NCBI RefSeq assembly: GCF_020382885.2
Contig: NC_058513.1
Location: 13,417,641-13,481,640 of the forward strand
Length of the DNA stretch: 64,000 nucleotides
Direction: 5' to 3'
From: Scatophagus argus
Lineage: Eukaryota; Chordata; Actinopteri; Scatophagidae
In this document: piece by piece, positions 39,026 through 64,000 of the stretch
Numbering within the stretch: position 1 is the stretch's first letter
Layout of the letters: each line of letters opens with the position of its first letter
Notes under the pieces: generated by a model
The model's input: the letters and a program-made list of their open reading frames with translations, nothing else
Told to the model about the DNA's origin: nothing
Database searches by the model: none
Translations under genes and position numbers: made by a program

Positions 39026-42000
39026 TGTCACAGTAGAAAAGCCATATTATTAATCCTGAGTCCTGTTTGGTTGCCTCAGTGTCACAGTCCTGGTTTTGTG
39101 CATGCTGGCTCGCTGTCACGACTTCCTCAGACACTTGGAGACACAAAGTCTTTGTTTATGTTACGTGTGATGTGCTTTTGCTGCTGTAGCAAGTGAAAAT
39201 AATGCGTAAATTGCCTATTGTCAAAAAAATTAAATTAGATATTTTTGTCTTCATAAACATAAATGAAAGTATGTTTATCTGCTGTCACCTTTCAGTGTAA
39301 TACATTTTGGGTGCTTTAATATGAGGATAAGTCCTATACTATATTATAGTATGACCTTGTGGTCTAATAAGTTTAGGGGGTAGTGGTTCTTGTAAGTTCT
39401 AATTAAATCAATTATTACACTTTTTTTTCCTGGTTAGTATTCTTTTTGGAAAGCCACACCACGGACCAATAAATTACCATAAATTTGCATTGACCCTGGT
39501 TAATAACTGAGGTTTAGGTGTATCCACAAACCACCAGCAGTATCTAAAATCAGTGTGATGAAATGTTGGTGTTACTTTTTTTCCACTGTTGCCACTAAAC
39601 AAACCAAAACTTACATATTTTAACATTTGCCACTCGCTCTCTGCAGCCATGAGGGACCAGCGGGGGTCCACCTTGTATTTGCAGATAAACACTCAGTGTG
39701 TAGCAGCAGATGACAAAGGCTTAGCGTAGTAATCCTCTTGTCCACCATCTGGCTGCTCCTCTAAAATTAAACCTTCCAAACCAGGGCACTTGCAACAGAT
39801 GCTAACATCTGTAAATGTGCAGGTGCTTCATTAAAGCACATACACGTGGAGCACATGGCTGCACAGCAGTGTTTCAATCTCTCAGATAATGTTCACGTTT
39901 AGGACACATATGATTCATACATACTGTGTATCAAAAAAGCCTGCAGATGGGAGGGATAAAGAGGGCAATAATGGATGAGATTGGGGAAAGCTTCTGCATG
40001 TGGAGATCTGGCATTATTGGGGATAAAAGTTGCTTTCTGTCTGTCCTTTTCAGATTGATGACCAATATTTGGTTGGGGTCCAAGGTTTTCACTGCTTAAC
40101 GTAGGCTTGACGTGCTGTGTGAGAGAGAGAAAGATAGAGAGGGAGAGACTTTAAGCGAATTCAGAGGACAGTCAATCCATGCAATGCGCTATTATGCGTA
40201 GACTTTCAGCAATTTATAATAACTCAGTCCTCACCTCTTGTTGTTCTTTTTCTCTTCCATAATCACACACCTAAGGTGTTTTCATGTTATCTCAAACCTC
40301 TTGGCCAGTACAGGGGTTAAAGCTGTAGGGCTTTAGCTGCATAGTTTTTTTAGTTCATTTTAAGATTGAACACCTTGATCCAGAGTGTACTAAACTTTTT
40401 GAAATTTCCTTTTGGGACAAAATTTTGTGTATTTCATACAGACATTCATGGTTCTAAGACAATGATCTAATGACTTTTGCAATCCCCTAACTTCCTTTAG
40501 CGCCGTTATGAGGTTGACCTTTGCGGGTTTAACTGAAATGCCTTGATTACTGACAAATTGACATCTAAGTATTAGCAGACAAGTGAGTTACTGACAAAGT
40601 GTATGGAGAGGGTAGTCAGTACACATCTCCCTCCATCTATAGCACAACACAGTTGTTTATAAAACCATAGAGGGACTGAGGATGAGTTTGTTCAACATGG
40701 CTGCCTGTCACCTGTGAGAATAACATACACCTTATATGCTGATTTTACTTTGGCTTTTAACACAATGAAAATTCAAGTAGTCTTGCAACAGTCTTCTGCT
40801 TTAGTTCTGTGTTGCACTTTCAAAACTGGCATTTAATTTCTTTTCCTGTATTATTGATGTAGGCTCACTTCTACTTTAACTGAGTATTTTTTTTCACTTT
40901 ACTTTATTCTTCATAAATATCATAATTTAAAAATAAACTACTCCACGACTTCTACTTCTCTACTCTCACTTTTTATCCCACTACATATAAATCACTTCTT
41001 TGCAGAATCAGATGTGAAAATCCCTGTGATTAACTTATGAAATATGCTTTCTTATTATAAAAGGAAGCACCCAAAAGTGAGAAAGTAGTCAGCTCCACCT
41101 CAGCCAATTACAGCGTTACATGTCAGTGAATTAGTAAAACTAATCCAGTATTAAAATCCATATTATGACAATCTAAAAGGGGACATTCAGCTTAATGTGT
41201 ACTTGTACCTTCAATACATAAGTATATTTAATACTCAATAATATACATTTTTTAAATTTTGAATATACACATAAGTGTTCTGCCTTAAATCTCAAGTATT
41301 CAGTGACATTAAGTCTTGGGTCTTCTCTGCACTACAGTCCTAAGCTCTGAGCAGTCCATGGATTTTGTGTTTATTTTAGTAAACAGAGCAGATTTACCAT
41401 TGGCTGCAAACCAGTAAGATGCATGAGTGTGTCACTGAACGTCAGACACTATTTTTATACCTGTGAATACAGGAAGTGCACAAGTCTGCACCTCTAAGCG
41501 ACTAAATCAGTACACCTCGCTGAAACGTGCCCTCGCGGACAAACATGCACTCGCATGACACCTGCATCTAAGCGGATCTGATTTTTTTGAGAAAGGTGCA
41601 AAACTCTCCCATGGCCAAAGTAGGATTCATGTTCAGAAATAAAAAGTATGACGTTCTTGACCACGTCAGATACGGGCAGAGTTGCAAGATCAAAACATCA
41701 TACTCAGTTTTCCACTTTGGCCTTCAGAGATTGTCACTTTTTTCCCCGTCTTTTTATGTTTTCATCAGAACAGCTTTTTATTTCTCGGTCGTGTCTCTCA
41801 GAATTTGAGAGATAAGCTGCAAGTGATTCATACCAGGAGGATTTCTTACCACTTTGTGCTTAGTGGCAAACATCTCTGGCAAAACGACATGCGCACATTA
41901 AGCTGAGCGAAAATTACCAAGTTAAGTCAAACAATGCTCACTGAAAAATACTGTTTGTAAAAGCCTGGCTTTGTGTCCTGACATCACAAGGTTTCCTGGG

Positions 42001-42470
42001 GGAAAGTGGACTGTAAAGTCTAAAGAAAGCCTCTTGGCTATAAATGCATCACAGATCCACAAGTGCAGCTGAGGCTCGTGTTGGTCAGTAAGCTGCCAAG
42101 GAGAGCAGCCACGGGAAGCTTAGGCCAGTGGGACTCGCTACATGTGACTTGGTGGAACCACTTAAAATACCAGTGAGAGGAGCCAGATGTGCAATTTGTC
42201 CATACAAATAAGCAAACAGAAATGAATGTGCAGCACATGACAGAAAGGGTGTTTGTGTGAGGTTTTAGTACTCAATGCACCCCTGGTTCAAAAGTCTAAA
42301 GTATATGATGTCACAAAGTCTTGATTGATGATACACTGTCGCATGTGTGAAGAGGTGTGATGATCACACCATATTGTGCGAATTCTCTCTTCCCTCCTCG
42401 TGTAGTATTTCGGGAGAAACTGGAGTGAGAGCATTGTGGTAGGAGATGTCTGCGGAGGGAAGGGATGCGT
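39026..42470. other. Intergenic region between ghitm and cdhr1
   Basis: No exon is recognised. Positions about 40861-41000 resemble a common fish repeat built from TACTTTTACTT/ACTTCTACT-like units. The last few hundred bases before 42614 presumably hold the cdhr1 promoter. Confidence 0.45.
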
Positions 42471-42474
42471 CACT

Positions 42475-42480
42475 GGATTA
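42475..42480 (+). promoter_or_regulatory. CRX/OTX-type GGATTA site upstream of cdhr1
   Basis: A GGATTA core lies about 135 bases 5' of the cdhr1 start codon, in the expected promoter or leader zone of a photoreceptor gene. CRX and OTX2 bind this core. A six-base match is weak by itself, so the call depends on the location. Confidence 0.4.
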
Positions 42481-42613
42481 GTGCCTGAGAATCTGTCCCA
42501 GCCTCTTCCTCCTGAGCTGCTGAGACGCCTCCAGAAGGACTCGACAGTCCCTGCTCGCTTTCCCTCCACCAAGCCTTCCACATGAGCCAGCCGAGCTTTG
42601 CCTCCCCACCAGG

Positions 42614-45600
42614 ATGAAGAAAGAAAAGAAAACACATGCTTTACTGTTTGTCCTCCTAATTCACTTCGGCTTCGGTAAGGCTCTGATTTTCATATTTTAT
42701 TTCTTTTGCTCTTTGTGTGTGTGGCTAAGACTTCTTGCCTTGCTCTTATCTTGTTAATCCTCTAACACCCAGAGGGCATGTCCATCTTAGCTTGGACTGT
42801 TCATGCTGCCTGCACCTCATGGTTAAAGGTGTATTTGTATGTTTGTGTTGAGATAGTGGAAACTCAAATGTGCCTATATTTATAATTCTTCTCCATCATC
42901 TTCCTCCTCCCTGCTTTCGTTTCCTGCCCGTTTTAGCCAGTGAGTGCAACAGTAATCATTTAATTACACAAGCATTTCTATTAGAAATGTAACAGAATAT
43001 ATGCAAATTTTCCCAATGTGATATTTTTCAGGTGTTTGCATAATGCACAGTAGCTTACTAACAGGTTTTGACATTATTTTGTCACATCTCTTCTGCTGAA
43101 ATAACTTGGAGCATGTGTATTTATTTTCCCATAAAGGGCAATCAGACTATGCTCCATATTTCTATGATAATGGCCCCAGCAGTACAAATGGGAACATGGC
43201 CTTGTTCAGCATCCCTGAGGATACACCAGTTGGTAAGTGTCATGTGTAACCTAATAGTGACTTTAACAGTCACAGATCTGTTTAAAATGATAGAATGAGA
43301 TCAAGTTTACTGTGGTTTAAAGCCATTTATTTTACAGGCATAGGTGTAATGATGAAATCATCACACCAGTAATGAAGCTCCGACTAATCACTATAATACC
43401 TTTTGGATAGTGACGTACATGAAGACTTACGGGAAGAAAACAATATGGATGGTGGCTCATCTGACCTGATTATTAAACAGCCAGAGTAACGAAGGAGAGG
43501 CATTTGTACCTGCACTGCGTGATTTTAAAGAACGTTGAAATTTAAGTGTTTCTTTGTCGTTTTTAGGGACACAAGTGTACATTCTGAATGGCACAGATCC
43601 AGAAGGAGATCCAGTACGATATGGTCTGACTTTTGAAAAAGGTTCCAAAGAGTATTTTAGGGTGGACTCCAAATCAGGGAACGTGACTCTAATTCAGGAG
43701 CTCGACAGAGAGGTGAGCCTGTTGATGAGGCTCTTATTTTGAAGAGACCTGCTGTAGATTTGTCACCAATGTGGCTCAAAATGACTTTTACCCTTTCTTT
43801 GTAGAAACAAGGTGAAATCTCAGTGCTTGTGAGCATAACGGACGGTCGTAACAAGGTACGTTTTTACTGTCGATGTGGTTTATTTTTGTTTGTGCTTTGT
43901 CTTCAATCATCTGCATGAATCACACCATTTTTAGTTTCATAAATAAAAGGAATTAAACATTAAAATGAATTCCAATTTGTGCAGCTGTTTTTATTTGCAG
44001 CTCAGAATTTGTTTTCTTGTGGTTTTCAGGTTGTTGAGACCGTGAGAGTGTTTGTCACTGATGCCAATGATGAACCACCTGAATTTCAAAACCTGCCTTT
44101 CATCATTGATATCCCAGAGGTTCAGTATTTCCCACTGTTACACCAAATACAACAAATTTCAATAAATAATTTCTATAGCTCTTCCTGGACCACAAACAAT
44201 CTCTAAATCTGCTGACTGAGTCAAACAAATAGAAAAGGATAAAAGGGGTTAAGGTTATAAAACCTTTTGTTTTTTTCCTTTACTAGGATACTGCCCCGGG
44301 AAGTAGCATCTACAGAGTCCAAGCAGTGGATAAAGACATGGGCTCCGGGGGCAGCGTCTCATATTATCTACAGGTAACCCCAAAGCTTCATTTTTATGCA
44401 GAAATGTTTGTTGAAAAATGTTTTTGCAGCTGAATTAAACCGAGGCTGCCCAGGACTATTCCTCACTAAAATGTAATTTGTGCTTTACTCTATTTCTACA
44501 CTGGAATTAAGAGGAAAAATCTCATGACTCAGTGACTTCAAGTGACCTTGACAAAAATATTAAAACTATTTTAGGCCTCATTCAGAGCAAATCAGGTATT
44601 GTGATGATACAAGTGGGTGTGTCACCACATGAGGCCTTAGTCTTACTGCACACAGTGTCACATAATCACATGTAGAGCTGTTAATAGCTTGGATCTCACC
44701 TACACTGGACTTCTTCACTCCTACACACTGAAACAGACTCTGACATCTGCCAACAAGTTTATCCTCTCAGTTCCCCAAACCTTAATTGAAAGCATGAGCA
44801 AGCATTTCTTTTCACAGCTTCTAGCTATTTGTATCTCTTTACATTTTCACGTGTACTTTTTATTGATGGTCCTCAATAGTTCGATTAAAACGGCGCAATC
44901 ATCATCTACATAGTGATACCGTTGACTTGGTATGGCCTTAACACTCTGGGGGTAAGACCAAAGGTTGAGCTGACATCATGAGAGCCATGTGGAGGGTAAG
45001 AGAGGGCATCCAAATGATGGGGCTGATTAATCTTGTACCAGAGAGCAGCCTGGAAATGGTGTTACTTTAGTGGATTAAATTTCAATTACATTTGAGCAAG
45101 GCACTGAAGGCTTAATAGTGGCTTAGGTTTGGCCTGGGCCAACAGCTGACAGCACAGTAGTTGTTACTGTCCACGTGTCAAAGCTATACTGATGAAAATG
45201 TGGTGAAAAATGTCAAGGTTGAAGCGAGGTTAGATTAGGACTGATTAGAAGTGTCTTTGAAATTAGCATGATTGCTCTTCATTGCTAAATTCAAGTAAAA
45301 ATGAAATGTGTGCTTACTGTTACCTAAGTACAGCTAATTGTATGGCTTTATACATTATCAGACCTCGCCATTTGCCAAGTTTACCATCGATGGGCACAGT
45401 GGTATCCTAAGAGTCAAACCTGGTGAGACTTTGGACTACGAGACCACACCCACACACTTTGTTACGGTGGTTGCAAAGGTAAGAGGTCACTGTTGCCCTA
45501 AACACACATTCACACTGTGAGCAGCAGGGCTTGCGGATTTATCCATCCTGTGAAATCCATGTGAGAAGTTTCAGATTCGTCCGTGTTGTAGTTTTCAGTT

Positions 45601-48600
45601 GTGTTGTTCTTGTAAGCTAACATGGCTAGAGAGCAAGACCTGAATTTGAAGCATTAATCAAATCTGAGTGGAGAAAATTTGCGAAAGTACTGGAATTTAA
45701 CAGTAGCCCCAACAACTTTTCTCCAAGAGGATCACTTTTTGACACCTTTAATCTAGTGGTCCTCCAAATAGAGTCTGTCAGGAAAGTTTTTAATGGGCTG
45801 GGATCAACTTCTGAACCATTTTGCACAGGAAACATATAACATAAGCAGAAAGGCAAGGAAGCATAGGAACCCATCTGCTCATGGCCAAATATAACAAAAA
45901 CTTCAGTCGTGACTAAGCTTTCCACAGTCTCTGTACGTGAAATAAATGGCTATTTGGTGAAGTGTTGACAGTGTTGCTCCCAGTGTGAGTAGTCTGAAGT
46001 GTAATCCTTCCATTGTCGGTAATAGCATGATGGAGAGGGCTGATTTTTTTTTCTAGGCACAGCTCTGTGTCTGAGGAATAATAAACAGTGCATACAGCTT
46101 CTTAAAAGTGTATACAGCTTCTTAAAAGTGGATTTGATTTGCTCTCACTGAAGCATAATAGCATAATTAACATAGCCATGCAAATAAAGCTAGAGATCCC
46201 ACTGTTTCCAATTATACTGGATTTGAGATGTTAAATATGGATTAAGAGGTTTATATCCCATTTTTAAACAAATAGGGTTGATATAATCTTATTAACTACC
46301 TAATTTTGATTTTGTTTTTATCTTCTACACTGTTTACCTTGTTAACAGAAAAATTCATCAAACCATTTCAAGCTAGACATCTGGTTATACTTTCAGCCAG
46401 TAGGAGGCCACTAATCCTATTATATTAATTTATATTTTAAAATCTTTGATGTGGGGGGGCAGCTAACACAAAGATCACACGATGCCTTTGTCTAGCATTG
46501 TGTGAGTCCATTAACTGCCAGATATAAAATAAAATGTCCTTTATCAAGACCTTTTTTAAAAAAAAAAAATCATAATTTTAATTCATATAAGCATCATCCA
46601 AAGTCTGCGAATGTGTATTACTGTAAACATAAAATGTGCTAACTCTGCCTTTTGCCTGACTCCTTGTTTTCTCAGGACGGAGGTGGAAAATACAAGGGGA
46701 AGCACCAGGTGTTGACCTCCACAGCCACCATTACAATCAATTTAATTGATGCCCAAGACATGCCTCCATCCTTCATAGGAACCCCTTACTTTGGCTATGT
46801 ATACGAAGTCTCAGTTCCTGTAAGTCATCTTCTGTACAGACTGTGAAGGTGATCAAAATCACTGATTTGGTTTACATGCAGGAAATATGAATAAGGTTAA
46901 TTATACTTGTTTTCCTTTCAGGGTTCTGAAATATTCACTGTGTACGCTAGAGATGGAGATCAAGGAGATCCCAACCCAATACATTACTCCATTATGAATG
47001 GTAAGAGCAATGCAATGAGACATAAGATTTGGTCTGGTTTACCGCTTTCAGCTTGTTTATCAGCCACATTTACAGAATTTCTTTCATCACCTCTCAGGTA
47101 GTGATGGTGTGTTTGACATAAATAGCACCAGTGGATGCATCACCCTGGCAACTTATCCATCTCTGCTGAAAAACGAATTGTATGAGATTAAAGTGAAGGT
47201 AATGATTTTTTTCTCTTTGAGTTCCTCCCCAGATGTTTCTTGAGAATTTAACCCACTGAATGTGTTGACCAATTTTATTTCTCAACCCAGGCCTCTGAGG
47301 TAGGACCAAACAATCAACTGCTGGACTACGACGTCACAACAGTGACGGTGCGGGTGGTGGATCTCAACAACCACCCTCCGACATTTTATGGAGAGAACGG
47401 CCCACAGAACAAGTTTGAGGTCACCATGTATGAGCATCCCCCTGCAGGGGAGATCCTCAGAGGTTTTAAGATCACCGTCAATGACTCCGATCAGGTAGAT
47501 TTACTCCCAAATTTCACTTGTGGCTTAGTGACCTTGTCTGTGTGCGCCTGCTGCACATTGAAACATTCATCAAAATCATCATCATTATTCATAACTAACT
47601 CAATAATTGTGACAAAAGCTGTTGCTCTCTTAACAAAAAGTGTTTTCATGATTTGTGTTATTTTGTTTAATCCTCTGCTGACAGATACCCCCTCAAAGTA
47701 CAACGTTGCATAAATATCTGTTAACACAGCCACAAAATATGTACAGTTATGCAACACTACTTAAAAATATTCATGAAGTCTGTTCATTAATTCAACATAA
47801 AATGGCATTCATTATGCCATTATGATTATTTTCCCCTTTCTGCCTCAGTGACTCATAAAGCAGTATCTGCCAGAATTTTTTAAAAATCAAACAAGGTTTG
47901 CTGAAGCTATCTTGAGTCTGATGAACCAGTTTCTCAACATGAGTTGTCTTGTTTTTCTGGGCAGCTACGTCCTTATCTATTTACTGATTCAAGGTTTCTG
48001 CATTTTGCTGTTTATTCTTCCTTGCAGGGTGCAAACGCTAAATTTAAACTGAGACTTGTGGGGCCGAGTCGAGTGCTGCGAGTGGTTCCCCAGACGGTGC
48101 TTAATGAAGCACAGGTGACCATCATTGTGGAAGACACATCTGGCATCGACTATGAAAAGGGACCGACCCTTTCTTTCAAGGTTAGTTGTCATATATCACT
48201 AAATTGTCAGCGAGTGATATTGGAGTGACGCCAGTATTTAACCTAGCGCTGCAGCTATTTGTTGTCTTCTTTTCTTTGTGAGATGATGAGATGTTCCCTC
48301 TGACCATCGGAACAAAACCCAAAGATGTTCATTTTGCAATTATGTAAAAGTTGTATGAGTTGTATAAGTAGCAAACTCCTAGAACTAGCAAATGTTTTGT
48401 CAGTCTCGTTTAGTCCAGACTGAAATGTCTCAGTAACTATTGAAAGAATCATGAAATGTTCCACAGACATTCATGGTCCCCGGAGAACAAATCCCACCAA
48501 CTGTTTTCGTCTAGCAACAGGTTGACGTTTGTGACTCGGAGGAAAATGTCTTATATCGTCTTATGATATCTAAAATTAGTTTTCTTGTTTGTCAATTATT

Positions 48601-51600
48601 CAACCGTGTTTCTGCAGCTGCTGGCTGTGGAGATCGACACTCCAGAGAGGTTCAGCGCCACAGCTGACATCGTGATCAACCTGCTGGACACAAATGACAA
48701 CATCCCCAAATTCACGTCCGAGTATTACATCGCCAGGGTCCCTGAGAACTCTCCTGGGGGCTCAAGCGTTGTGTCTGTAACAGTGAGTCCATCAAGATTA
48801 AACAAGATTAAACTTTTACCCAACAGAAGTGATTATATAATCCATCAATCCTCCATCAGATGCATATTACTCAGTGCAGTTCATCAGATGAAAGCAGGTT
48901 GTGGCCAGACTAAAAATAAAAAACAGTTCCTGGCTTTGTCTTTGTTGGGCCTAGCTATGAAATTCACGTCTGGCGTGTGCTCTGTGTTATACCTCAGGCA
49001 GGAGTTTTATTAATAGAAACACTGGCACATGTGTCTATCCACTGTATGTATCCCGTAGCCAAGCAACACGTTCAAGCCACACAGTGTGGAGCATAAAGCT
49101 TAATTTTGCCCCAGGGTTAATCATGCTGACCTATACCTCCATCCCCTCTCACCACAGGAGGAGCCTTATAGCCTGCCCCACCCACATGAGCTTAAGACCC
49201 TAGCTGGTTATCCTCTAATAAAAAACAAGATCAACAATCTACGGTCACCTTGGTGCAAAAATTGAATTCATTTTATCCGATTATGATCTTGCTTACAAAG
49301 TGTACGTTTTTCACACTTTATTGTATGTGCTATAAGTACTGGACTTCTAATCTCTGTCCTGTTTTTTTTTTTTTTAATCCAGGCAAATGATCCAGATTCA
49401 GGGCCTTGGGGTGAAGTCAAATACACGATTTATGGATCAGGATCAGATTTGTAAGTGAAAAACCTTTCACTCCTGCCAGGTTAAATTTAGTCAGATCACA
49501 TACTTAACTCTTGCATTTCCACAGAACACACTGCATTGATTGTTGTTTTATGTGTATTAAGACTCAGCACTTCTCGGGGTGCTCAAACTCACGCAGCAGG
49601 ACACCAGTCTTGATTCATCTTTTGTCTCTTGCAGTTAGCATGAAGCCAGTTTCACCGGCCCCTCTGCTTCACAAACATCTCGCTCTAAAATGGCTGCAAG
49701 ATGCTGGTTAATCTCCTAATTGGATTGGAGGTTTAAAAATAGCAAGCCTGGCCCGTCTCACATAGGGAGAGCCAATTAACATGTAATGTGACAGCTGGAG
49801 CTACAGACATGGCAACTCTGAAAAGCAGCATGCAGCAAAGGAGAAGTGAGAATTTATGCAAGTCTTCCGGCAGCGACCTGAGTTAATTGTGCGAAAGTTA
49901 TCAGTTTCAAGGCAACTTGTGAAATTTCACAGTGGAAAACAAGACAGAAAAGATGGCCGAATAAAATGGCAGTAAGCCTAATACTGAACTAGAAAGCACT
50001 CAGAACTCAACACAAACCTACAGCAAAGCTGTTGAATTCTCTAAATTTATTTTTGACATTAAAAATACTTATATAGTATAGTATTTATTGTATTAGAATC
50101 GACAGAAAACCAAATCAACAAATATTCTTGAAAAAAGATGACAAAATTGGCAGAGATTTTATTGATGTTAGTATCTACTTAACTTTATTTATCCTTAGGG
50201 AGAAAAGTCATATTTTACAATACCATAAGGAAGAAAGTGGGAACCAAATAAAAGAAAAAAAGAAAAGAAATTCTACTACTTAAAACAAAACAAATAAAAT
50301 TTAATTACACCATAGACGGACTAGAGGAGACATTCACTTGTTTTTGTGACATCTTTGTGTGAGACAAATGGTGAAATTTTATATTAACTAAGCGTTCCTC
50401 TTCCTGGAAATCAGATTTTTACAGTGAATTATAAAAGTTAATCATGTATTCACAGGAGAGTCACAGGATGTGATGTAAATGTTACTCGTGCTATGAATGA
50501 GGACGCAATATTAGAAGCACCTGATGCGCTGGGTTAAAGTGTTTGGTATGGCGTGGACATCTGCTGTGACTCATTCTAACTGTCTGAACTGTTCTGAACC
50601 TGCAGGTTTACGATCCACCCGTCATCAGGCCTCATCTCCACGCAGCCGTGGACCAGCCTGGACGCTGAGGTCAGGTCTAAATATAACTTTTACATCAAGG
50701 CTGAAGATTCAGAGGGGAAGTACAGCTTGGCTGAAGTCTTTGTCACCGTCCTTGACATGAACGACCACTCACCAGAATTTGATGAAGAACTCCTGGAAAA
50801 GACAATGATTATTGGTACACCTGTCAAAGTGGAGGTACAAAACATTAAATCATCCCCCAACCCCCAGCACTGAAAAATTATTTTTAAATCAAAAGATAAA
50901 TACACTAGCTGTTTGTGATATTTGGAGATTATATGGAAGGCCAGGACTGCAAATATCAAAATAGAATCATCTAAAGTGATTGGAATATTAACGGCCATTT
51001 ATGTGCATTTTGTATATAACAAAAGTGATAAATTAATGTTAAAAAAAACGTAATGTTAATAATAAAAATTTAGAAAGCAAGCCTTATTCTTTAGAATAAT
51101 AAAAGCTCAACTGAAAAATAAATCAGTCTGTTCTGTCGCATAACCTGCCATGACTGTAAGGTGAAAACAAAAGTGAAAACTTTGCTTAATATGAATATAT
51201 TATATGAATATGAAGTTCTGTAATATTTTTCACAAACATAAAGCGAATCATTGAATAAGGCTTTTTCTAAAGTAATTCGTGGAAACCACAGGGTGGGATT
51301 AGACAGCCAGTTGCCATTGATCAAAATATGCAGCTGTTTTATGCTATTCTGCTACGCTTTACAGGCAGTGGATGAAGATGCAGAGTCTCCAAACAACGTC
51401 ATTGAATACTCAATCATGACAGCTGACCCTGACAACGCTTTTGATATCAATGCTGACACTGGGGAGATTAGGCTGAAGCCTTACATCAAGTCCATAGAGA
51501 TTGTGCAGAACATCACCAAACAGAAGGACTGCAAGTGGTCTGTGGTGGTCCAAGCCAGGGACAGAGGCTCTCCATCCTTCAGCACAACGGCTGTGGTCAA

Positions 51601-54342
51601 TATCGACATCACCGAGGCGGTAAGACCTGCTATGAGGTGCAGCATGCTACAGCGCTCTCCTTTCCATGCCTGAGCTTTAGGCAGCACAAGCTATAGATTA
51701 AAGCATTTTAGCATGCGACGACAAGTGTTGTCGCCATGTTACGAAGCTGCTTATTCAGCGTCCTTGTTCAGTCAGTCACATTTCACTGACATCTTTTTTA
51801 AAGGATAATGCTGTGTTTCATTTATATGCTTTTGTTATTATCAATAAGTTCCACGAAGAGACAAAAACTAACAATGATTTTAACCCACTAACAAGTGATT
51901 TGGGCAATACTGGAGTTTCATGGCACACAGAGGAATAAACCAAATGGCTATGGCTACAGCTAATACACTTTATAGACAAAAGTATTTGGAAACCTGACCA
52001 TTACACCAACAGGGACTTAAATGAAATTGCATTATATAGACAGCTTTGCAACTATAGCAGCTTCAACTTTTCTCTGAAGGCTTTCCACAAGATTTTGTAG
52101 TCTTTCTGTGGGATATTTTGTCCATTCATGCAATAGAGCATTTGTGAGGTCACACACTGATGTTGGACCAAAAGACCTGGCTCGCAATGTTCCAGTTCAT
52201 CCCAAAGGTGTTGGATAGGGTTGAGGTCAGGACTCTGTGTGGGCCAGTCAAGTTCTTCCACACCAAACTCATCCAACCACGTCTTTATGGAGCTTTGATT
52301 TGTGTTCTAGGAGCATAGCGTTGTCTAAAATGTCTTGGTATGCTGAAGCATTAAGATTTCCCTTCACTGGAAGTAAGAGGCTTAGCCCAACTCCTGAAAA
52401 ATAGCCTCATAAAGAGATTTGTCTGGATACTTTTGTCTATATACCGTATATGCTTTCTAGGTAATATAGAGACAGTCAAGTCAGGCAGCAGCTCTACCTC
52501 TAGTCTTGTCTACATTGTTTTACTGCTCCTTCTAGTCCTTCATTTGCATTCTAAACCACTCATGCATGAATTCTGCACAGCTGGAAACTGATTCAACAAA
52601 ACAACAGTAAAGGGCTTAGCCCAACCCCTGCAAAAAACAAAAACAAACAAACATAAAGAGGTTTGTTTGGATGCTTTTGTCTATATAGTTTACACATTAG
52701 TAGGATAAATTCATAGTGGTTTTTGTCTCTTTAGTAAATTTGAAGATATAATCCAGCAGAATTATCCTTTAAAGTTTTCAGTCATTACATAAAGCCATAT
52801 TTTTCTGATGCTCTGTCTTCACCATGTCTTCATTTCTTCACTCTGCATGATGAGATGACTTCGTGTTTTTGGTGTTGTTTCTGTGTTGTGTATCGTGCAT
52901 TTCAGGTCAAAGGTCGAATTATTTCATACGTCATGGGCCTCAGCAAGCGTCCGCTGACTGTTTTTGGAATTTTTTTCAGCATTGTTACTTCCCTCATTTT
53001 ACTTACAATCTGCATATCTACAATACTGTACTGCAGCGCAGTGAAAAAGTCCAGAATCAACCCGGAGAGTAACTATATTAAAGTAGTCCGCAGAATCAAG
53101 TGAGAAATACTTAACGCTGGTACTGGTACCTTATTCATCTGTAACCTTTAAAAAGATGTCTATTTTTTTACTAGTTACATAATGTCTGTAAAAGAGTCCT
53201 GGAGCACATTTGAAGCAGTTTTTTTTTCTATTTTGCTTTTTATTTATTTGTTATTTGCTAAATGCAATATTTTTTCACTAATTTAGTTTGATTTTGATAC
53301 CACCAAAACCCCATCTTTGATAATCTAAAATACTTTTTATGTCTAGAACGTGACTGTCAAAGTGACTAAGACGGAGCCTTTTACTTTGGATTTAAACCTG
53401 GATTTGCTCACATAATCTCCATTTTCCACACACAAACATGTACTTCACTCCATTTTTTTGTGTTCATGAACTGTCACAGTTCTTGTTCAGCTCTCATCAG
53501 TCACATGCCAAAGAGAAATCCTAATGCACAGCACTGCCAGACGCATTCCCAGCAAGTAGTGTTGTACATAGCTGTTAGCTTTGCATCAGCAGTCTGATAC
53601 TGTAGGAGAGAGGAGGACGAATGACTGAGTGTGAGTGTGGGAGCGTCACATTGTTGGTAGACATGTTGTCTGGGCCTCTTCTGTCAGTGCTTTGCTCATC
53701 CATCTCTTGTGCTTGCATGCTTTAGACAAACTCTGCGTGAACACTTGGATTCAGTCCCTTGGACTCGATTTAAACTGTTTTATTTGTGCTCTTTTACAGA
53801 CTCCTCTCAAGGGGCCTATGGCAGCCTTTTTAATGAAAAGTAGGGACAATCCTATGAAAGCTCTAGGCATGGTCACTGTTATCATTAGCTTACTGGTAGG
53901 GATGACGGTCTTGATCTCTACAGCTATGTACATGCGCAACTCAAAGTCAAACAGGATCATGCCGGCACGTCGCATCATTAAGAGGCGACCCAGGGACCAG
54001 CAGCCCTGGACTTTCAGGATGCCCATTATCAAATTCAACGACCCTGCAGATAAGTTTGTCATCAACAACCCAGAGAGCGGCCTGCAGAGGGGCACCAGCA
54101 GCCCCCGGCCAAAGCCTCCACCCCCCAGCGCTCCTTGTCTGCCCCCTCCACCACCATCTAACGCACGATCGAGTGAGAAGCCCCGGGCGGTCCCAACAAT
54201 ATCTGGTGCTCTGGCCTCCAAAGGCTCCAAGAAAGCTAAACCCAGTCGCCGCAAAGAGGGAAATGTCAGCTCTGCTTTAGTGTCAGAGCTTAAAATGAAG
54301 TTGGAGCAGAAAATTATTGAGAGTAACCAAGGTTATTATTAA
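42614..54342 (+). CDS. cdhr1: Cadherin-related family member 1 (photoreceptor cadherin), long-tail form
   Basis: Seventeen coding exons: 42614-42674, 43137-43232, 43567-43712, 43805-43855, 44030-44119, 44287-44373, 45362-45478, 46676-46819, 46922-47000, 47098-47198, 47291-47494, 48028-48180, 48618-48782, 49383-49450, 50606-50834, 51365-51619 and 53800-54342. Phases are consistent and give 862 residues (human 859). A signal peptide (about 1-20) is followed by six extracellular cadherin repeats. Their boundaries are marked by calcium-binding DANDEPPEF (128), DAQDMPPSF (241), DLNNHPPTF (348), DTNDNIPKF (467) and DMNDHSPEF (571). One membrane helix spans about 703-725, and the basic, proline-rich cytoplasmic tail ends in ESNQGYY. 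In vertebrates the protein sits at the base of photoreceptor outer segments at nascent discs, and its loss causes cone-rod dystrophy. The gene is convergent with lrit2. A second membrane-anchor exon lies at 52906-53103. Confidence 0.97.
46091..46130 (+). repeat. 20-bp tandem duplication in cdhr1 intron 7
   Basis: Two adjacent copies of a 20-base unit, [c/t]atacagcttcttaaaagtg, differ at one base; apparently a recent small duplication. Confidence 0.9.
50178..50215. repeat. Remnant LINE/SINE 3' tail in cdhr1 intron 14
   Basis: The sequence actttatttatccttaggga is a diverged form of the tttattgatcctgaggg tail at 17510. It is a solo terminal remnant. Confidence 0.4.
51966..52446 (-). mobile_element. 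Deleted Tc1/mariner element, copy 2 (cdhr1 intron 16)
   Basis: Bounded by cactttatagacaaaagta at the left and atacttttgtctatata at the right. On the minus strand the remaining transposase carries [20 protein letters not shown] followed by HLWDELE, the C-terminal catalytic region of Tc1 transposases. Internal sequence between that and the other end is deleted, and the frame is degenerate. It lies antisense to cdhr1, between exon 16 and the alternative exon. Confidence 0.9.
52611..52695 (-). mobile_element. Tc1 terminal fragment, copy 3
   Basis: The block gggcttagcccaacccctg, an A/C-rich insertion, then ataaagaggtttg and cttttgtctatata repeats the right end of the element at 51966-52446, about 165 bases beyond it. 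Only one terminus is present. Confidence 0.75.
52906..53103 (+). CDS. cdhr1: Alternative cdhr1 membrane-anchor/short-tail exon
   Basis: A strong acceptor (catttcag at 52905) opens a phase-0 frame compatible with the exon 16 donor at 51620. It encodes 65 residues ending in TGA: a juxtamembrane segment, one hydrophobic helix (about [20 protein letters not shown]) and a 24-residue basic tail ending KVVRRIK. Spliced after exon 16 it would give a 747-residue receptor lacking the proline-rich tail. The first 53 residues align without gaps to the start of the canonical last exon (53800), with about 16 identities including KG, the P and G before the helix, IST, RI and P, so it looks like a duplicated exon. 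No AATAAA or ATTAAA occurs before 53800, and a possible donor (CAA|GTGAGA) overlaps the stop. Expression is unproven. Confidence 0.75.
   Translation, partial: VKGRIISYVMGLSKRPLTVFGIFFSIVTSLILLTICISTILYCSAVKKSRINPESNYIKVVRRIK
53104..53799 (+). other. cdhr1 last intron
   Basis: Separates the alternative and canonical terminal exons. It has no canonical poly(A) hexamer and no repeat that I recognise. Confidence 0.6.
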
Positions 54343-55540
54343 TCACGCAAATGTTTAAGATTCCCTGGTCTGTTCTTTGATGACTCAAATAGTGCAGGAG
54401 AGTTGTCACCTGAACCTCATGTGATGATCTGCTAATGTGGGCCCACCTTCAGATTATTTATGAGTGGTATGGGGAGTATTTCAGGAAGGTTTACAGATAT
54501 TTATGTCTATAAGATGAGATATTAAACATGTGGGCTCCACTGCATCCTCAGCTGACCTGGAGAAAGGGGAGAGCTTGACTCTGTCACCGGTGCAGTCGAA
54601 GATAATTCACCACACTGCCATCTTGAGGAGGATTACATCATCTTAACATTTAGAAGCACCAGTGCAAATTGTCCAGGAAGAGGATTACTAAGACTTACTG
54701 TGAATACATAAGTTACATAACTTCCTGAAAAGTGTAATGTTCATGACCCTGTAATGTTTTCAACACAAAATTCAGATTTCACCAATTAAATCGTATTAAA
54801 ATAAAACATTTCTTCTCGCTAACTGGAGCGTGCAGCTGAAAAACACAGTCATGAAAATCAACACTGCATCTTTTAAAGTGCTAAAGGACCCATGTTTTAA
54901 TATTTTTACTGTGTTGCATCAGCCGCTTGAGCGCTGAGAATTTGCTCTTTTGTATGATTACAATGTGCCACTGTAGGTTTTCACAATAACACAAGTTAAC
55001 AGAGTTGCTTTTATTTATGAGTGTGTCATTCTAGAAAAATGCTTTTATATAAACACCATGGGTCCATTTTAATGTACAGTATTGTGTTATTTTTATTATT
55101 TTGAAAATACATGTATGAAAAAATATCAATATTTACCAGTTGTATCTTGCAGCAGTAAACAAACATAAAGTACAAATGAAACCATCTAACACCGCTAGTC
55201 GGACATTGTTACAACAAATTAGTCACATGCTTAAGATTTTCAAGCACAGATAATAATGTATATAACCTACTTGGACATTTCTTTCGTAGATATAGAGTGT
55301 GGGTTGAACACACCGTTACTTTCCATGTTACTCTTCAATGCCTTCAAATTTAGGCAAATAAAAATTCTTTAAATGCTGTAATACATATCTTGTATCTGAA
55401 TATATCATAACTATATTGAATAAGTTGAGATAAACGATACATGTTAAATATAAATTACATTTGCCTGGTCCTACGAAATATCATATTTGTACCGTCTTTG
55501 TACTGTCTTGATTTTGAATAAATATTTGAAAATAATTTAG
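54343..55540 (+). other. cdhr1 3' untranslated region
   Basis: AT-rich sequence after the canonical stop codon. AATAAA hexamers at 55357-55362 and 55517-55522 would place poly(A) addition near 55.38 or 55.54 kb, giving a 3' UTR of about 1.0-1.2 kb. Inferred from signals only. Confidence 0.6.
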
Positions 55541-57075: not shown

Positions 57076-59176
57076 CTAGTACAGATGAGCTGCACTTCCT
57101 CCTTTGCACCTATCCTCGGACTTCCGCTTCCTTTGGGGCTTTTCCTCCTCCTCCCTGCACAGGCCTTCATCGCTGGTCGCCTGCAGGCTGTCGAAGGTGC
57201 CTTGCCTCTCCATCCCTTGCAGGTTCTCTCCAGGCAGCCTGCGTTTCCTCCACAGATCCACACAGCGATCCACACAGCTGAACCTGGCCTCGGTGGTGCA
57301 GGCGTACATGCCTGTCGGCACTGCCAACACCATGGCACACACAATGACAACAATGTGGATGAGCCTTTCTCTTTGCTCCAGCTCACTGATGTCGCTTCCT
57401 GTCACAAACACAATGCACTGGCCATCCCTTGGTGGATGGTTCTTCAGGGTCACACATACTTCATATTTGGTGACAGGAAGCAGGTCGTTGACTGAGTAGC
57501 TGTTGATGCCGGGGCCGATGTAGATTGTCTCCTTTTTGGGTGAACCATATTTGCCAAAGTGGATGGTGAACCAGGTTTCTGCTGGGTTGTCCGTTGCTGC
57601 ATGCCACTCCAGGGTGATGCCGTAAACTGTCTGCTTGGCAATGCGGATTTCAATATAGGTATTCTCATCAGACGACAACATGGGGACAGGTGGAGGGAGA
57701 GGAACCGAGGAACTGAAGGAGCTGACGTTCACTGTGATGCTGACAGAAGAGCTGCCAATGAAGTTGTTGGCCATGCAGGTGTAGAGTCCTCGGTCTGCCA
57801 GATGAAGAGAAGGGATCACCAGCTGGGAGGTGATGGTCTCCTCATTTATTTGAGTCTCTGTAACTGCAAGGAGAAAATATGAGATCAGAGTGTAAGACAT
57901 TCAGATCTAAGGTTTCTTAACATTAGATTAAGGCAACCTGAAAGCAGGTACAGTATTATTCCTGTCCCTTCATTAAACAGATGCAGCCTGAGAGTTCAAC
58001 ATATACCACACTAAGTGCTCGCACAGCAGGTTCACAACAGTCTAATGGATGGTAGTAATAAAAAAAAAATCTTACCCGCAAATCCTCTTATAATCTTCAG
58101 ACTGTACATCCAATGAATGGCCGGGCCTGGTCTGGCCTTGACTAAGCATGTGAGAGTTGCATTTGCTCCAAGAGGTAAAGTGATGTTAGTCTCTGGGGCA
58201 GAGGCCTCTGGCTTCATGCATGTTTTTAACTGGATCTCATGAAAAAACTTGTCAGCTTTGGCGGCGGGGCCCGAACACATCAAATAAGAGTTCATCAGAA
58301 TTATGGGAGGGCCGACTTCCCGAATGAATTCGACAAAGCCTTTGAGGCGACAGTCGCATAACCAGGGGTTGTCATGCAGCCCCAGAACCACATTGGAGAC
58401 CAGCCCTTCTTTTCCCCATGCTTTCTCTGCCGTTTGGTAGAGAGGCCAATCAATGAAGACATCTTTTGATATGACACTAAGTTGGTTGAAGGATAAATCT
58501 AAGTAGGTTAGTGTAGGTAAGTGTCTCAGAGCACGTTCAGGCAGGACATCCAGTCGATTGTGCTTCAGGTCCAGAATTTTCAGTTTCGGGGTATCCTGAA
58601 ATGCCGTCCATGGTACTGAAGTCAGCTTGTTCCCTTGTAGCCTGAGCTCAGTCAGGTTAGCCAGCCCCTCCAGGCTTTTAATGTTCATCAGGGTAATCTC
58701 ATTGAAATTCAGCCAGAGGAACTCCAAGGTACTAACTTTAGAGAAAGATCCTTGTGGTAACTCAGTCAGGTGGCAGTTCTCTATTCGGATTTTAGTGAAA
58801 TCATGTGGGATGTCCTCTGGAATTTGTCCCATGGAGGTTTCCATACATAGCAAAGACCTAAAATGGTAATATGAAAAAAATAAGATGCGTTTAGACAAGA
58901 GAAGCAAATAGCTACTCATGTATATGCACCATTAGTGCAAATGTATTGATTATATTTGTTTTTAGGTTTTAGAGCAATGTGGTTACCAAGTTAGATTTAA
59001 AACAACCCTAAAGGGCTAACATAAAACCTACTTTAAAGAACATATACAGTTTCAGTGGTCACTTACCTTCCCAAGTTATCATCTGTGCAGGAGCATCCGA
59101 TCAGACAAGTTGCTGATCCAGGGGTGACGAGATAAAATATCAAAGTGATATGCAATGTGGCATGAAAGGCATCCAT
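57076..59176 (-). CDS. lrit2: LRR, Ig-like and transmembrane domain protein 2
   Basis: Three exons on the minus strand, 59067-59176, 58076-58857 and 57076-57863, give 559 residues (human 550). A signal peptide (about 1-22, [20 protein letters not shown]) leads into the LRR N-cap cysteines TCLIGCSC. Leucine-rich repeats follow, for example [20 protein letters not shown] and [19 protein letters not shown]. Next come an LRR C-cap ([15 protein letters not shown]), an Ig domain (about 250-345, ending [14 protein letters not shown]), an FN3 domain (about 365-453) and one helix ([20 protein letters not shown], about 465-484). The cytoplasmic tail is cysteine- and charge-rich. LRIT proteins are retinal synaptic and photoreceptor membrane proteins; the specific role of LRIT2 is less defined. 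The exon junctions split Arg (AG|G) and Val (G|TT) codons. It lies tail-to-tail with cdhr1 and in tandem with lrit1. Confidence 0.96.
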
Positions 59177-59254
59177 ATTCCTGGAGGAGTTTGTGAAGTA
59201 GGCCTGTGAGGGCAGGACGAGCCCATGGGCTGCATGGAAGAAAGCCTATTACCT

Positions 59255-59325
59255 TAATCCTCCTTGACGTAACACTTAAGACACCAACTGACATGAGACA
59301 CACACATAGGTAAGGACTATTTATA
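59255..59325 (-). promoter_or_regulatory. lrit2 core promoter: TATA box and CRX/OTX site
   Basis: On the minus strand, TATAAATA occurs at 59318-59325, about 140 bases before the start codon. This would place transcription initiation near 59290. A GGATTA core (59255-59260) lies just inside the predicted leader. A TATA box fits a tissue-restricted retinal gene, unlike the TATA-less ghitm promoter. Inferred from motif and position only. Confidence 0.45.
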
Positions 59326-59326
59326 G

Positions 59327-59825
59327 CAATGGTCTAGTTTGTCTGGAAAACATTGTCCAATATCCTAAAAGCATGAAAACACTCCACACCACAGCATTGC
59401 TCAATCAATATTCAGTGAGCTATGATTGATTGGAATGTAGCTACTTTCAGGTATGACCCCCAAACGGCTTTCTAATTTAATTTATTTGCCCCCCCCTTCC
59501 AAAGCACCAGCATTGACATGACAGGAGGCCCATCATTAAATGGGCCAGAGCCCATCAGGCTTAGCACCACAGAGAGGGAGGGCTGCAGAGAGACAGAGAC
59601 AGATGTCTGGAGAAGACTGTAATCTGACCTGAATAATCCGAACACTGCTTGTCTCACAGGTTCTTATAGGCCAAATCAACAAGTGTGAAAACACACATTT
59701 ACAACACTGTAGAATCAATCTTTCTAACAGAAATTTGTCCTTTAATGTCCAAGCTTCTTATAGGTGTACATCCCAAGAGGTGAATCTGGCATTCAGTAGT
59801 CTAATGTGGAAACAGTAGACTGCAT
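59327..59825. other. Upstream region of lrit2
   Basis: Non-coding. Further TAATCC-like cores occur, for example near 59629, and could extend the lrit2 promoter. No exon is recognised. Confidence 0.35.
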
Positions 59826-60060
59826 ATGTGTCAAACTCACGGCCTGCGGACCACATCCGGCTCGCGAGCTCATTTCATATAAATCTATTATTATTGTTAC
59901 TAATGGGCCGCCAATATGAAGCGCTGATAACACACAAACTACAGATCCCATAATGCAGCGCAACTGCCGCCTTGCCTTACTATTGGCTACCTGGGAACAT
60001 TCCCGCGTCAATCAAGTCGAGCTCTGTTGCCGTATACAACCGAGGCTGTTGATTTAGTTG
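59826..60060 (+). mobile_element. hAT-like repeat terminus (truncated)
   Basis: The text tgtcaaactcacggcctgcg, then cggctcgcgagc, matches the start of a GC-rich repeat class (hAT-like, with a TGTCAAACT terminus) that I recall as frequent in fish and other vertebrates. It contains ACTACAGATCCCATAATGC at 59938-59956, a near-consensus ZNF143/THAP11 site. No matching opposite terminus was found downstream, so it appears truncated. Superfamily call tentative. Confidence 0.5.
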
Positions 60061-60308
60061 GCCTAGTTTGCTCTTTTATTATTGTTTTCAACACAACAAC
60101 AACGTCTCTACTTGCGCAATTAGCGCACTGCTCCCTCCGGTCGGAAAGCGGTCACGACACGCCCATCTGTGCCGCCCCGAGCTCGAAAGGGTGATGTCAC
60201 GGAGTGGGAAAACCGCAATGCATCGTGGGCTTTGCAGGCAACTGAAACGCCGGCTGCATGCGCGATGCTGCTCTTGTGTTCTGTTGTTTTGTTTCAACAA
60301 GTTAAAAC

Positions 60309-60382
60309 ATGGTGCCAGCGTGCTGTGTCGTTAACTGACACAATCGTTCACATGATCGCTTCGGTAAAACAAACGATCGGGT
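60309..60382 (+). pseudogene. Decayed THAP-domain first exon
   Basis: Reading from ATG at 60309 gives MVPACCVVN, then TGA at 60336-60338, then HNRSHDRFGKTNDR before a GGGTGAGT splice-donor-like sequence. THAP zinc fingers start M-x3-C-x4-C. The second zinc-binding cysteine (residue 10) is exactly where the stop lies, one base from a Cys codon (TGC/TGT). With the CpG-rich upstream DNA and the ZNF143-type motif at 59938, this looks like a dead copy of a THAP gene or THAP-type transposase first exon. No downstream exons were found. Confidence 0.6.
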
Positions 60383-60389
60383 GAGTTTT

Positions 60390-61600
60390 TGTCTCATTTC
60401 CTACGTGCACGCAAACCCAGAGACGCCGAATGGCCTGGAGAGCAGCCGTGAGTCGACCTAACATCACTTTCAGCACAATCAGCCGACACATGTTGGTGTG
60501 TTCACGGCATTTTCACACTGGTGTTGGTGGTGTTTTTCTGAAAATGAAATGAATGGCTGCTTATTCCTGTTTATCCTTAACATGTCATTGTTATGTCAGG
60601 CACAGGAAAATCTCCTCATCTGCTACTTGCTCATATGGCGACAAACACCAGGCCTGCACTTTACAAAGAAAGTTAATAAAAGTATCTCTAATGGTGATAA
60701 TAAATATTGTAGTTCACTAGCAATATATGAAACTGTATTCCAACTACTTTAATTGAGCCATAAGAAGTCCTCTGTGAAACCATGTGCCATTTAGTCAAGC
60801 AATAATGTCTGAGCACTTATTGTTTTAAAGTCTTTTCAGTTTATTACAAACATTCTTGTGAGAAAAGCCCTTTTTTTCAAGGTTTTTTGCCGCATGTTCG
60901 TATTTCTAAGTTGTTTTGACAGGAGATTTTATATATATGCATATAAATGAATTTTCTTCAATTAACCTTGCGTCATTGGTGATATAAATATTAATTTATT
61001 TTATTTATTTTGGAATGATATTCCTGTCTGGTTTTATTCTGTATGTTTAAAAATGTGTTCAAAGTGTTCACTTTAGATCAGCCTGTGATCTAAAGTGTGC
61101 TTTGAGTTTTGGCCCCCTGTGCTGTGACCTAGAGACTAAAGGCATATTTTTTCCTGGAGCAACAACACAAATTGCTCCTAAATTGATTAGGCATTTTTAC
61201 TGAATGAAATATCTGAGGCTGAGCTAGTCGGCATATGTATTCTAGACTCGTTCATTTGAATTGTTTTGTTAGATCTAAAATCTTTATCAGAGATCCTCCA
61301 CTTTATGTGCTAACAAGAAAGATGATAGCTGCTGTGTGAGGCACAAATGTGCTTTAAGCAAAATGCTAATGTTAGCATGTTAACATTCACTTTATCCCAA
61401 ATCAGCTCATCTATTTACGACTTAAAGAAGGTTATACAAAACATTTTAGTTTTAAATGCTACTTGACCTTGCTCAGATTAGCTGTGTGTTGTCCTGATTT
61501 TTCAGCAAATTAACAACAGACTAATTTTTTGCTTCAGTCAAGATGAATATTGATCTATTCAGAAATCAGTATTCTAAGAGGGTAGAGAAAGACCTTGAGA
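60390..61600. other. Intergenic region between lrit1 and lrit2
   Basis: AT-rich, non-coding. No exon or recognised repeat beyond the THAP relic upstream. A stem of gatctaaagtg with its near-complement lies near 61074-61100 (ttagatcagcctgtgatctaa), a short local palindrome. Confidence 0.4.
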
Positions 61601-62203
61601 ACATGTAATGTAAAAAATATTTATTTATATACAGTACGTCCATACATACACATAGGTCACAAATATTTACACATTATAAAATACTGTATTTTAGGTTTTT
61701 GACCCAACAGTAAACCTGGCACATTAACATCATACATACAAAATAGACCATTAACTGCCAGTTCATCTTTTCACTAAATAATATAAATAAAGATTTAACA
61801 CAATGCAGATGTTACATCTCGGAAAAAATTAAAACAACTGGGATTTAGACAGTTTAGGACAACATTTCAAGACATTTTCTTCTGCAAAACGTCATATTTA
61901 AAAGTGCATGATGAATTTTATTTTAAAAAAGTTCTTTTTACACATTTACACCACATGCAAATATCGAAACTGTGTCACTGTGTATATTTTCCCTTTTTGC
62001 TGTCCACCAGTTAAATGGTGGTTTTTATTCCCACAAGGCTGTAAAACATTTTCATACATCCAGTGCTGACAGAGCTGTCCATGTCAACTCAGACGACCTA
62101 CCCCCAAAAGAGGAGTCGTTTGAGTCTCTGAGCACGGTGGTGTATCTGGTCACATCACAGGCCCTTCGAAAACAAAGTGCATCCTTTAGAGGTTCATTTG
62201 GTT
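61601..62203 (-). other. Probable lrit1 3' untranslated region
   Basis: Follows the lrit1 stop on the minus strand. A minus-strand AATAAA at 61620-61625 suggests a 3' UTR of about 600 bases. No coding signal. Confidence 0.55.
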
Positions 62204-63712
62204 TTAGCAAAAGTACTCGTTAGGTGCCCCCTCAGTCCTAGCTGTGGCCTCCGAGTCAACACTAGACCTTGCTGAAAGCAGCCTGTTGGATTCGTCAGGA
62301 TTTAGTCTGGTCAGATATTCGCCCTCCATCCCTTTAGCTTTTCCCCCAGGGCCAAGGGTCTCAAACGTGACGTACGAGTCCTGCATTTCCTTGGACTGCC
62401 GACCAAGCAGCTTTTGGCAGCGCTTCTTTAGAGCCCCACAGCACACAATCAGTGTCAGAGGGACAGCAATCACACATGCAACTGTTATCACCACCACATT
62501 AATGAGCTTCTGAGTTCCACTAGCACTGGCTGCCTCATCTGTTGAGAAGATTACACACTGCTCCTTTTTTGGGATCAGGCCTTTGACGCAAACACAAGCA
62601 ATGTACTTTGTCTTTGGTACAAGGCCATCAATGGTGATCCGGTTCTTTCCAGCACCTACATTGATCCGACGCATGTCTCTCTCGCCAAATATGGCATACA
62701 GGACGCTGAATTCTGTGGTGTTTGTGGCTGTAGGGGCTCGCCAGTTCAGAGAAACAGTGTGGTCGGTGTCGCCAATCACCTTTACCGAACGCACTACTCT
62801 TTTCTCTGGTGCTTGCTGTAAGGATGAAGCGTTGGCTGCTAAGTTACTCAGAGCATCCTGCCCCACCTCCGATGGCTTCTGAGGGTCTGACACCTTGCCT
62901 CGTCCCTGAGAGGCATCATTAGAGATGCTGTAGCTCTCGATCTCATACTTTCCAGTCACACCTTTACCATTTAGAGGTTCAATGATGGGCTGGCCGGCAG
63001 TGGTGGTTGGCGGAGGAACATATCTGGCAATAAGCTTCTCCTGGTATGCCGCTCTTCCAATGCCACCCGGTTTCTTCCCTCTGGTTCTCTTAGAAACACC
63101 TACACCTGCTTCCTCAGACCGAAAGGAATCTGTGATCACCAAAGAGATTATGGCATCTGCTGTGCCCACGAAGTTGGTTGCTTTGCAGACATATTTCCCA
63201 GAATCTCGGTAGGAGACTGCAGGCACACTCAAAATTGACCAAATTATGCCCTCCTTTGAAATCTCTTCCTGGACTGAAAAATAAAAAAACGGAGACATCC
63301 AGAGAGTTAAGCATGATAATCTTTAATCTCATTGACACTGTGACTTGGACAGAAATAAATACTGTTCTAATTTAGGCACATCTGGGCTTAGTTCAGCAGA
63401 ACTTACCGGTGCCATTCATTCTCTTGCCATCAGCACGACTCCAGGACAGCTCAGGGATAGGGACTCCAACTGTGCCACAGCGAAGCAGGACGTTGTTGCC
63501 CAGTGAGCTTCGTACACGAGCCACGGCCGTGTGGACCCGAGGGCCCTGACACCTCTGCAGCTCTGCTTCAGTGAAAAGAACCCCTGACAGGCTCTCCGGA
63601 TCAGCGCACCTCAGCCTGGTGTCGATAAGAGCCACAGATGATGATGGGGTTTTCTGAAACTGCACCAAATCATACAGCCGGCAGTCACACAGCCACGGGT
63701 TGTCATGCAGAC
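62204..63712 (-). CDS. lrit1: LRR, Ig-like and transmembrane domain protein 1, 3' part
   Basis: Two minus-strand exons are visible, 63407-63712 and 62204-63273; the signal peptide and LRR exons lie past the right edge. The first carries the LRR C-cap ([18 protein letters not shown]) and the start of the Ig domain (NVLLRCGTVGVPIPELSW). The second finishes the Ig domain (DSGKYVCKATNFVGTADAI), then has a linker, an FN3 domain (SVKVIGDTDHTVSLNW to KTKYIACVCVKGLIPKKEQC), a membrane helix (INVVVITVACVIAVPLTLIV) and a tail ending RLLSARSSVDSEAT and EYFC, as in human LRIT1. The protein is a photoreceptor synaptic membrane protein that tunes transmission to bipolar cells and associates with mGluR6. 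The intron inside the Ig domain has the same place and phase (G|TC) as in lrit2, consistent with tandem duplication. The exon 63712 acceptor is phase 1, splitting a Gly codon. Confidence 0.95.
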
Positions 63713-64000
63713 CTGCAGAGGAAACCAAGCAAGACAAGGGGCCTTCAGTGATTTTATTCAACTCAGTGTCCTTGTATGAACTAATGTTATTACCATCCAG
63801 TACATTTCCCCTTGCACAACACAAAGCCATTTCAAGACCAAAAACTTGTGGCTGTGAGTTAAATTAAATAGAATTAGTGAGACAACTTGACACACAATAA
63901 CTAAAATTAGACTAATCCTTAGCTTTAAATCCTTCTGGTGTCAAAGAAGTGGTCATCATGCAAGGCAGATTAAAAAGAATATGTTCCAGTATCCCAATAT
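63713..64000 (-). other. lrit1 intron (runs off the window)
   Basis: Sequence 5' of the LRR C-cap exon on the minus strand. No further lrit1 exon is visible before the edge. Confidence 0.7.

Follow-up and report, generated by a model that had tools for sequence, protein, structure and literature searches.

Does the fish cdhr1 gene in this window (the whole 64,000-nucleotide stretch of DNA analysed here) have two alternative 3' ends that attach different membrane helices and tails to one cadherin ectodomain, and does the DNA between these ends hold anything that could select one of them? The parts of the gene that the question concerns, numbered by window position, are:

51365..51619, plus strand: exon 16 of cdhr1, cadherin domain, 85 codons, with the shared donor GTAAG at 51620
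52906..53103, plus strand: short alternative exon, a juxtamembrane part and one membrane helix, 65 residues, TGA stop
53800..54342, plus strand: long alternative last exon, a homologous membrane helix and a proline-rich tail, 180 residues, TAA stop
54785..54805, plus strand: poly(A) signal cluster ATTAAA, ATTAAA, AATAAA, which may be common to both forms

These exon positions (end at 51619, starts at 52906 and 53800, 65 and 180 codons to the stop) are as the initial annotation of this DNA had given them, and the expected splice boundaries lie beside them: GTAAG follows 51619, TTTCAG precedes 52906 and TTTTACAG precedes 53800. Exon 16 matches the Pfam family Cadherin (PF00028, E 5.4e-10), the short exon has just two Pfam matches, both below the cut-off and to families of unknown function, and at E up to 1 the long exon matches nothing in Pfam. 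The 19-residue hydropathy peaks of the two tail exons are 2.62 (short) and 2.53 (long) and lie at matching places; either end would complete the architecture of CDHR1, in which a cadherin domain precedes a single membrane helix and a tail of non-classical type. Upstream open reading frames resemble GHITM and downstream minus-strand frames resemble LRIT proteins (both named by eye); human CDHR1 has GHITM, LRIT2 and LRIT1 as its neighbours.

Are the two tail exons related to one another? The gap-free alignment of their first 53 residues with 16 identities, on which the claim of exon duplication had originally been based, was reproduced exactly, and the best-scoring alignment is somewhat longer (59 ungapped residues, 18 identities, 32 positives including the identities, BLOSUM62 score 83). 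This score was reached by none of 3000 shuffled sequences of three kinds, one of which kept the hydrophobic segment in place (maximum 59), and on the fixed diagonal with the helix kept in place none of 20,000 shuffles reached 16 identities (maximum 14). Judged from these sequence comparisons, the likeness of the short and long exons is homology rather than a common helix composition. Duplication rather than chance is borne out both by the shuffles and by the presence of the two exons in a second cdhr1 copy (below), and the same two lines of evidence support the gene model of one common ectodomain with two different membrane helices and tails. The exons are adjacent, homologous and in the same phase, which is the layout of mutually exclusive duplicated exons. 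Two outside relatives suggested by PDB sequence matches were discarded: adhesion GPCR L2 for the short exon (one weak match, E 0.0024, with no stretch that passes alone) and ZBED3 for the long exon (two weak matches, both E 0.043).

The second copy, which the initial annotation had not noticed, was found by searching the genome (570.7 Mb, 48 contigs). With the short exon as query there were six matches at E up to 10, namely the exon itself, the two long exons, a site at position 10796422 of contig C10 (52%, E 2.3e-12) and two weak ones, of which the match on C16 (E 0.765) has nearby stops and no comparable exon and that on C8 is weaker still (E 3.76). The long exon gave 14 matches at E up to 10, of which that on C10 is 48% identical and the rest are weak. 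Counterparts of the exons from 43133 onwards occur on C10 in unchanged order, and a neighbour beyond them is conserved too; exon 16 is 86 codons long there, and an intact short exon (66 codons, AG|ATC, phase 0) lies ahead of the C10 long exon. When the four tail exons are aligned together (with the C10 long exon, which has one extra residue, set manually beyond that residue), they all agree at nine positions, and the identities are 31/59 for short with short, 31/59 for long with long and 14-18/59 across kinds. Because the within-kind identity exceeds the across-kind identity, the exon was duplicated before the gene. Zebrafish carries cdhr1a and cdhr1b, and in the excerpts of the papers concerned cdhr1b is reported to be absent from the retina (PMC7719784, PMC13090022); we infer that the gene duplication was that of the teleost genome. 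A 12-residue block at the end of the long tail (54274-54312; C10 near 10797734) is kept in both copies although the middle of the tail has diverged; its conservation suggests a short binding helix.

Frame-breaking changes in relatives and the dN/dS ratio had been named initially as checks on the short exon, and it passes through both: its frame is intact in one relative, the C10 copy, and its dN/dS between the two copies (0.24-0.45) is well below 1 and similar to that of the long exon (0.27-0.38). The underlying dN and dS values are 0.361 and 1.263 (NG86), 0.386 and 0.854 (LWL85) and 0.374 and 1.559 (ML) for the short exon, and 0.466 and 1.42 (NG86), 0.456 and 1.211 (LWL85), 0.471 and 1.552 (YN00) and 0.464 and 1.726 (ML) for the long exon; for exon 16 dN is lower (0.12-0.13, with dS from 1.8 to beyond estimation), and the ratios are rough because dS is high in all three exons. 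In a simple neutral simulation of the short exon with one change per site, 985 of 5000 runs were free of stops and 3 of 5000 matched its protein identity without a stop. By these sequence measures the short exon is genuine and of old origin.

Human CDHR1 also has two ends. Isoform 1 is 859 aa and isoform 2 is 745 aa long, and their first 680 residues are identical (PMC6201214), while the splice-site variant c.2040+5G>T leads to skipping of human exon 16 with loss of 86 residues, and the membrane domain begins at Gly703 (PMC5539332). Since 2040/3 = 680, the human isoforms part at the end of exon 16, and the tails beyond this point are 65 and 179 residues long, compared with 65 and 180 here and 66 for the C10 short exon. 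The rest of the human anatomy, as far as these excerpts give it, is found here as well: exon 16 has 85 or 86 codons (86 in human), the junction corresponds to that after residue 680, and Gly23 of the long exon, one of the nine positions shared by all four tail exons, falls at 680 + 23 = 703, the human Gly703 position at the helix start. By length and junction, the short exon is thus very probably the counterpart of the end of isoform 2 (NP_001165442.1) of human CDHR1 (PCDH21), which likewise parts after residue 680 and has its own 65-residue tail. The initial annotation had supposed that such an alternative end was undescribed in fish cdhr1; at least outside fish this does not hold, since human isoform 2 is stated and splits at the same junction (PMC6201214), and it is stated rather than studied in the portions of PMC6201214 and PMC5539332 that were available. 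Those passages on isoform 2 mention no RNA element, whereas the fish cdhr1 gene studied here has a candidate element complementary to an acceptor, which the initial annotation had not noticed either.

The two gene copies were compared by blastn, using window 42900-55200 (from the earliest coding exon recognised to beyond the 3' end) and 12.5 kb of C10. Of 17 matches at E up to 0.01, 16 are exonic and the remaining one is a 26-nt element (C10:10796720-10796745) about 80 and 98 nt past the short-exon stop codons of the window and C10, respectively. The element and the site to which it is complementary are:

53183..53208, plus strand: conserved non-coding element, 26 nt, 24/26 identical in C10, complementary to the long-exon acceptor
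53184-53196, plus strand: perfect core of the element, 13 nt
53785..53801, plus strand: acceptor arm TGTGCTCTTTTACAGAC of the long exon, the same in both gene copies, predicted to be paired

A wider blastn (38300-55200) gave 20 matches at E up to 0.1, including a non-exonic one at 39078-39127 (E 4.5e-5) and a marginal, non-collinear, non-exonic one at 50869-50895 (E 0.082). Because 39078-39127 is conserved too, the element is not unique as a conserved sequence outside the known exons; its match to the acceptor is independent of this. That stretch (52 nt, 79% alike, C10:10781030-10781081) lies 4-6 kb before the first recognised coding exon and could be a promoter, first exon or enhancer.

How unusual is the complementarity? 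In both copies the element is the reverse complement of the long-exon acceptor over the 13-nt perfect core and a second half-site; its two inter-copy differences fall between the half-sites and the core is without changes, the two copies not being independent of one another. Thirteen consecutive pairs were reached by none of 1000 dinucleotide shuffles per copy (longest shuffled runs 10 and 11), and the duplex energy is below that of all 300 shuffles per copy, though by a narrow margin in C10 (-36.5 vs -36.1). When 17 acceptor pairs of the two copies were compared, there were six conserved complementary 8-mers at the long exon and none at the other 16, the longest complementary run within 1 kb upstream was 13 at the long-exon acceptor and at most 9 at the others, and the identical run up to the AG was 15 nt compared with 2-7 nt. 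(The 17 include the exons near 43554, which has no AG at the matching offset, and near 43805; the exons near 43133, 44290 and 48624 have two AG candidates each, of which one was taken.) The pattern CTGTAAAAGAGNNNNNGAGCACA has two exact matches in 570 Mb, both within the cdhr1 copies, and when up to two mismatches are allowed it has 93 (91 inexact, two of these with one mismatch), compared with 42 for the reversed pattern used as control. The element and the acceptor are in short a conserved complementary pair beside the exons, as in RNA-structure-controlled exon choice. A docking site with competing selectors was considered and rejected, as the element pairs well with the long-exon acceptor (-27.6 and -33.8 kcal/mol) and poorly with the short-exon acceptor (-14.8 and -9.9 kcal/mol). 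In raw energy, its best pairing inside intron 16 reaches -27.7 kcal/mol for the window (1286 nt), as strong as the narrow-arm pairing with the window acceptor (-27.6), and -20.9 kcal/mol for C10 (612 nt).

Folding was predicted for a stretch that begins at the short stop codon and reaches slightly into the long exon (757 nt in the window, 680 nt in C10). Both predicted folds contain the stem: nine of its 13 core pairs in the window, and twelve in C10, have a probability of at least 0.94. In the 757-nt window fold every acceptor-arm base is at most 0.04 unpaired and four core pairs out of 13 face competition from an alternative register (0.06-0.46); the C10 helix is predicted to extend to 16 pairs, one of them G-U. 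When longer stretches are folded the window (1195 nt) keeps the stem and C10 (1121 nt) loses it (probability 0.001). As a whole, the window interval folds no more stably than shuffled sequences do (z -0.67, six of 20 as good), and because the interval energy is so ordinary, the support for the stem is the conserved complementarity and not overall stability.

Our main reading of these data, to which we give a probability of about one in two, is that cdhr1 has two homologous alternative ends and that the choice between them is likely steered by an RNA stem over the long-exon acceptor. The exon 16 donor would join either the proximal acceptor at 52906 (the 65-residue exon with its basic tail) or the distal acceptor at 53800 (the 180-residue exon with its proline-rich tail), and the element, about 80 nt past the short stop codon, would pair with the distal pyrimidine tract, the AG and the first exon bases. 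Pairing that covers the pyrimidine tract and AG should prevent U2AF from binding; while the stem stands, U2AF would be kept off the distal acceptor, the proximal acceptor would be used and the short tail favoured, and the long form would be made when a protein, a helicase or folding kinetics opens the stem. Use of both junctions, formation of the stem in cells and repression of the distal acceptor are what we infer from the model, and the two forms would presumably have the same ectodomain and different cytoplasmic partners.

Where would the short form end? None of 18 poly(A) hexamers occurs within 53104-53799, the 696 nt between the window exons, and the short form may therefore rely on the shared 3' end; it would read through to it and keep the stem in its 3' UTR. 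Past the long exon there is a lone ATTAAA at 54521, then the cluster at 54785..54805 and further poly(A) signals downstream of it. C10 has AATAAA at 10797030, between the two arms. Because the window interval is without a signal and the C10 interval has one, the copies may end the short form differently.

Could ordinary regulators and splice-site strength choose between these last exons, the element serving the short form as a site of 3'-end formation or protein binding and its complementarity being incidental? The proximal and distal acceptors, ending TTTCAG or TTTTACAG, both look usable, the element contains UGUA, the CFIm site, and in C10 the weak signal AATATAAA starts at the last base of the element and is followed by the AATAAA at 10797030. 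An element with a single working arm would, however, not be expected to have a 13-nt perfect complement in both copies, which no shuffle reached, nor to be accompanied by a long-exon acceptor whose own conservation far exceeds that of the other 16, and the window copy has none of the 18 poly(A) signal types nearby; we therefore regard this explanation as unlikely, though as one to be taken seriously. It is improbable that the stem acts instead in the mature short-form mRNA, as a 3' UTR hairpin for stability or localisation: the lack of any of the 18 signals between the window exons means that the short form may carry both arms, but the pairing covers the AG and pyrimidine tract exactly, and the AATAAA between the C10 arms, if used, would leave the short mRNA without the distal arm. 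The same lack of a signal between the short exon and 53800 is what might be expected if the short exon were a relic gone out of use in the window gene copy, which we think very improbable given a frame and splice site that are intact in both copies, a dN/dS well below 1 and a human counterpart by length in the sources cited above. Least probable is that the short exon is a cassette whose donor CAA|GTGAGA (53097-53105, overlapping the short stop codon, with 7/9 places fitting the consensus) is spliced after 53099 to 53800 to give a frame-shifted short tail, as C10 has no donor at that place at the same threshold and the human isoform 2 length, as stated, fits reading to the exon's own stop.

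The stem over the long-exon acceptor, the reading that we prefer, resembles known systems in part. Mutually exclusive exons with competing RNA structures are tandem duplicated exons with adjoining long-range pairing (PMC6071210), likewise the arrangement here. In the docking-site model one site pairs with several competing selectors; cdhr1 has one predicted pairing, directly over the distal acceptor. RNA pairing has been linked to terminal-exon or 3'-end choice in the fly PGRP-LC 3' variable regions, fly Nmnat and the human FGFR1OP2 terminal exon, which are presented as cases of competing structures, of a splicing/polyadenylation switch and of a looped-out exon (PMC9013439, PMC8052449). In cdhr1, unlike these three, the acceptor itself lies within the predicted stem and the two duplicate ends swap a membrane helix. 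Among open-licence papers we found none on CDHR1 and RNA structure and none that prints an acceptor-covering element of this kind, and the CDHR1 papers there that concern a terminal exon, as listed, give no sign of the CDHR1 ends. The alternative tail itself is known from human records, judged by its length and junction; the acceptor-covering element is the new part, and is worth testing.

CDHR1 is expressed in olfactory-bulb neurons. A broader proposal, which we hold tentatively and with the odds slightly against it, is that vertebrate cdhr1 chooses its helix and tail through an ancient stem, in which the 26-nt element covers the whole long-exon 3' splice site and predates the gene duplication, and which may exist in human CDHR1 and set the tail of photoreceptors and olfactory-bulb neurons. 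If the two tails are vertebrate-wide, damaging exon 17 changes would leave the short form unaffected; this form would go undetected by antibodies to the long tail, and gene replacement that uses isoform 1 alone would supply one form only. The stem, if true, would be a simple, testable vertebrate case of a duplicated terminal exon selected by hiding one complete acceptor, and variants inside such an element could act on splicing.

Two further features of the locus were observed. The intron before the short exon contains a repeat at 51970-52440, whose ends read TATAGACAAAAGTATT and AATACTTTTGTCTATATA; it has no blastn match with C10, and a minus-strand frame within it (52052-52306) resembles Tc1-type transposases. 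Downstream of cdhr1, minus strand 57076-63863 has leucine-rich, Ig-like and fibronectin-like stretches (by eye) that resemble two LRIT genes, one of which has a paralogous neighbour beside the C10 cdhr1 copy.
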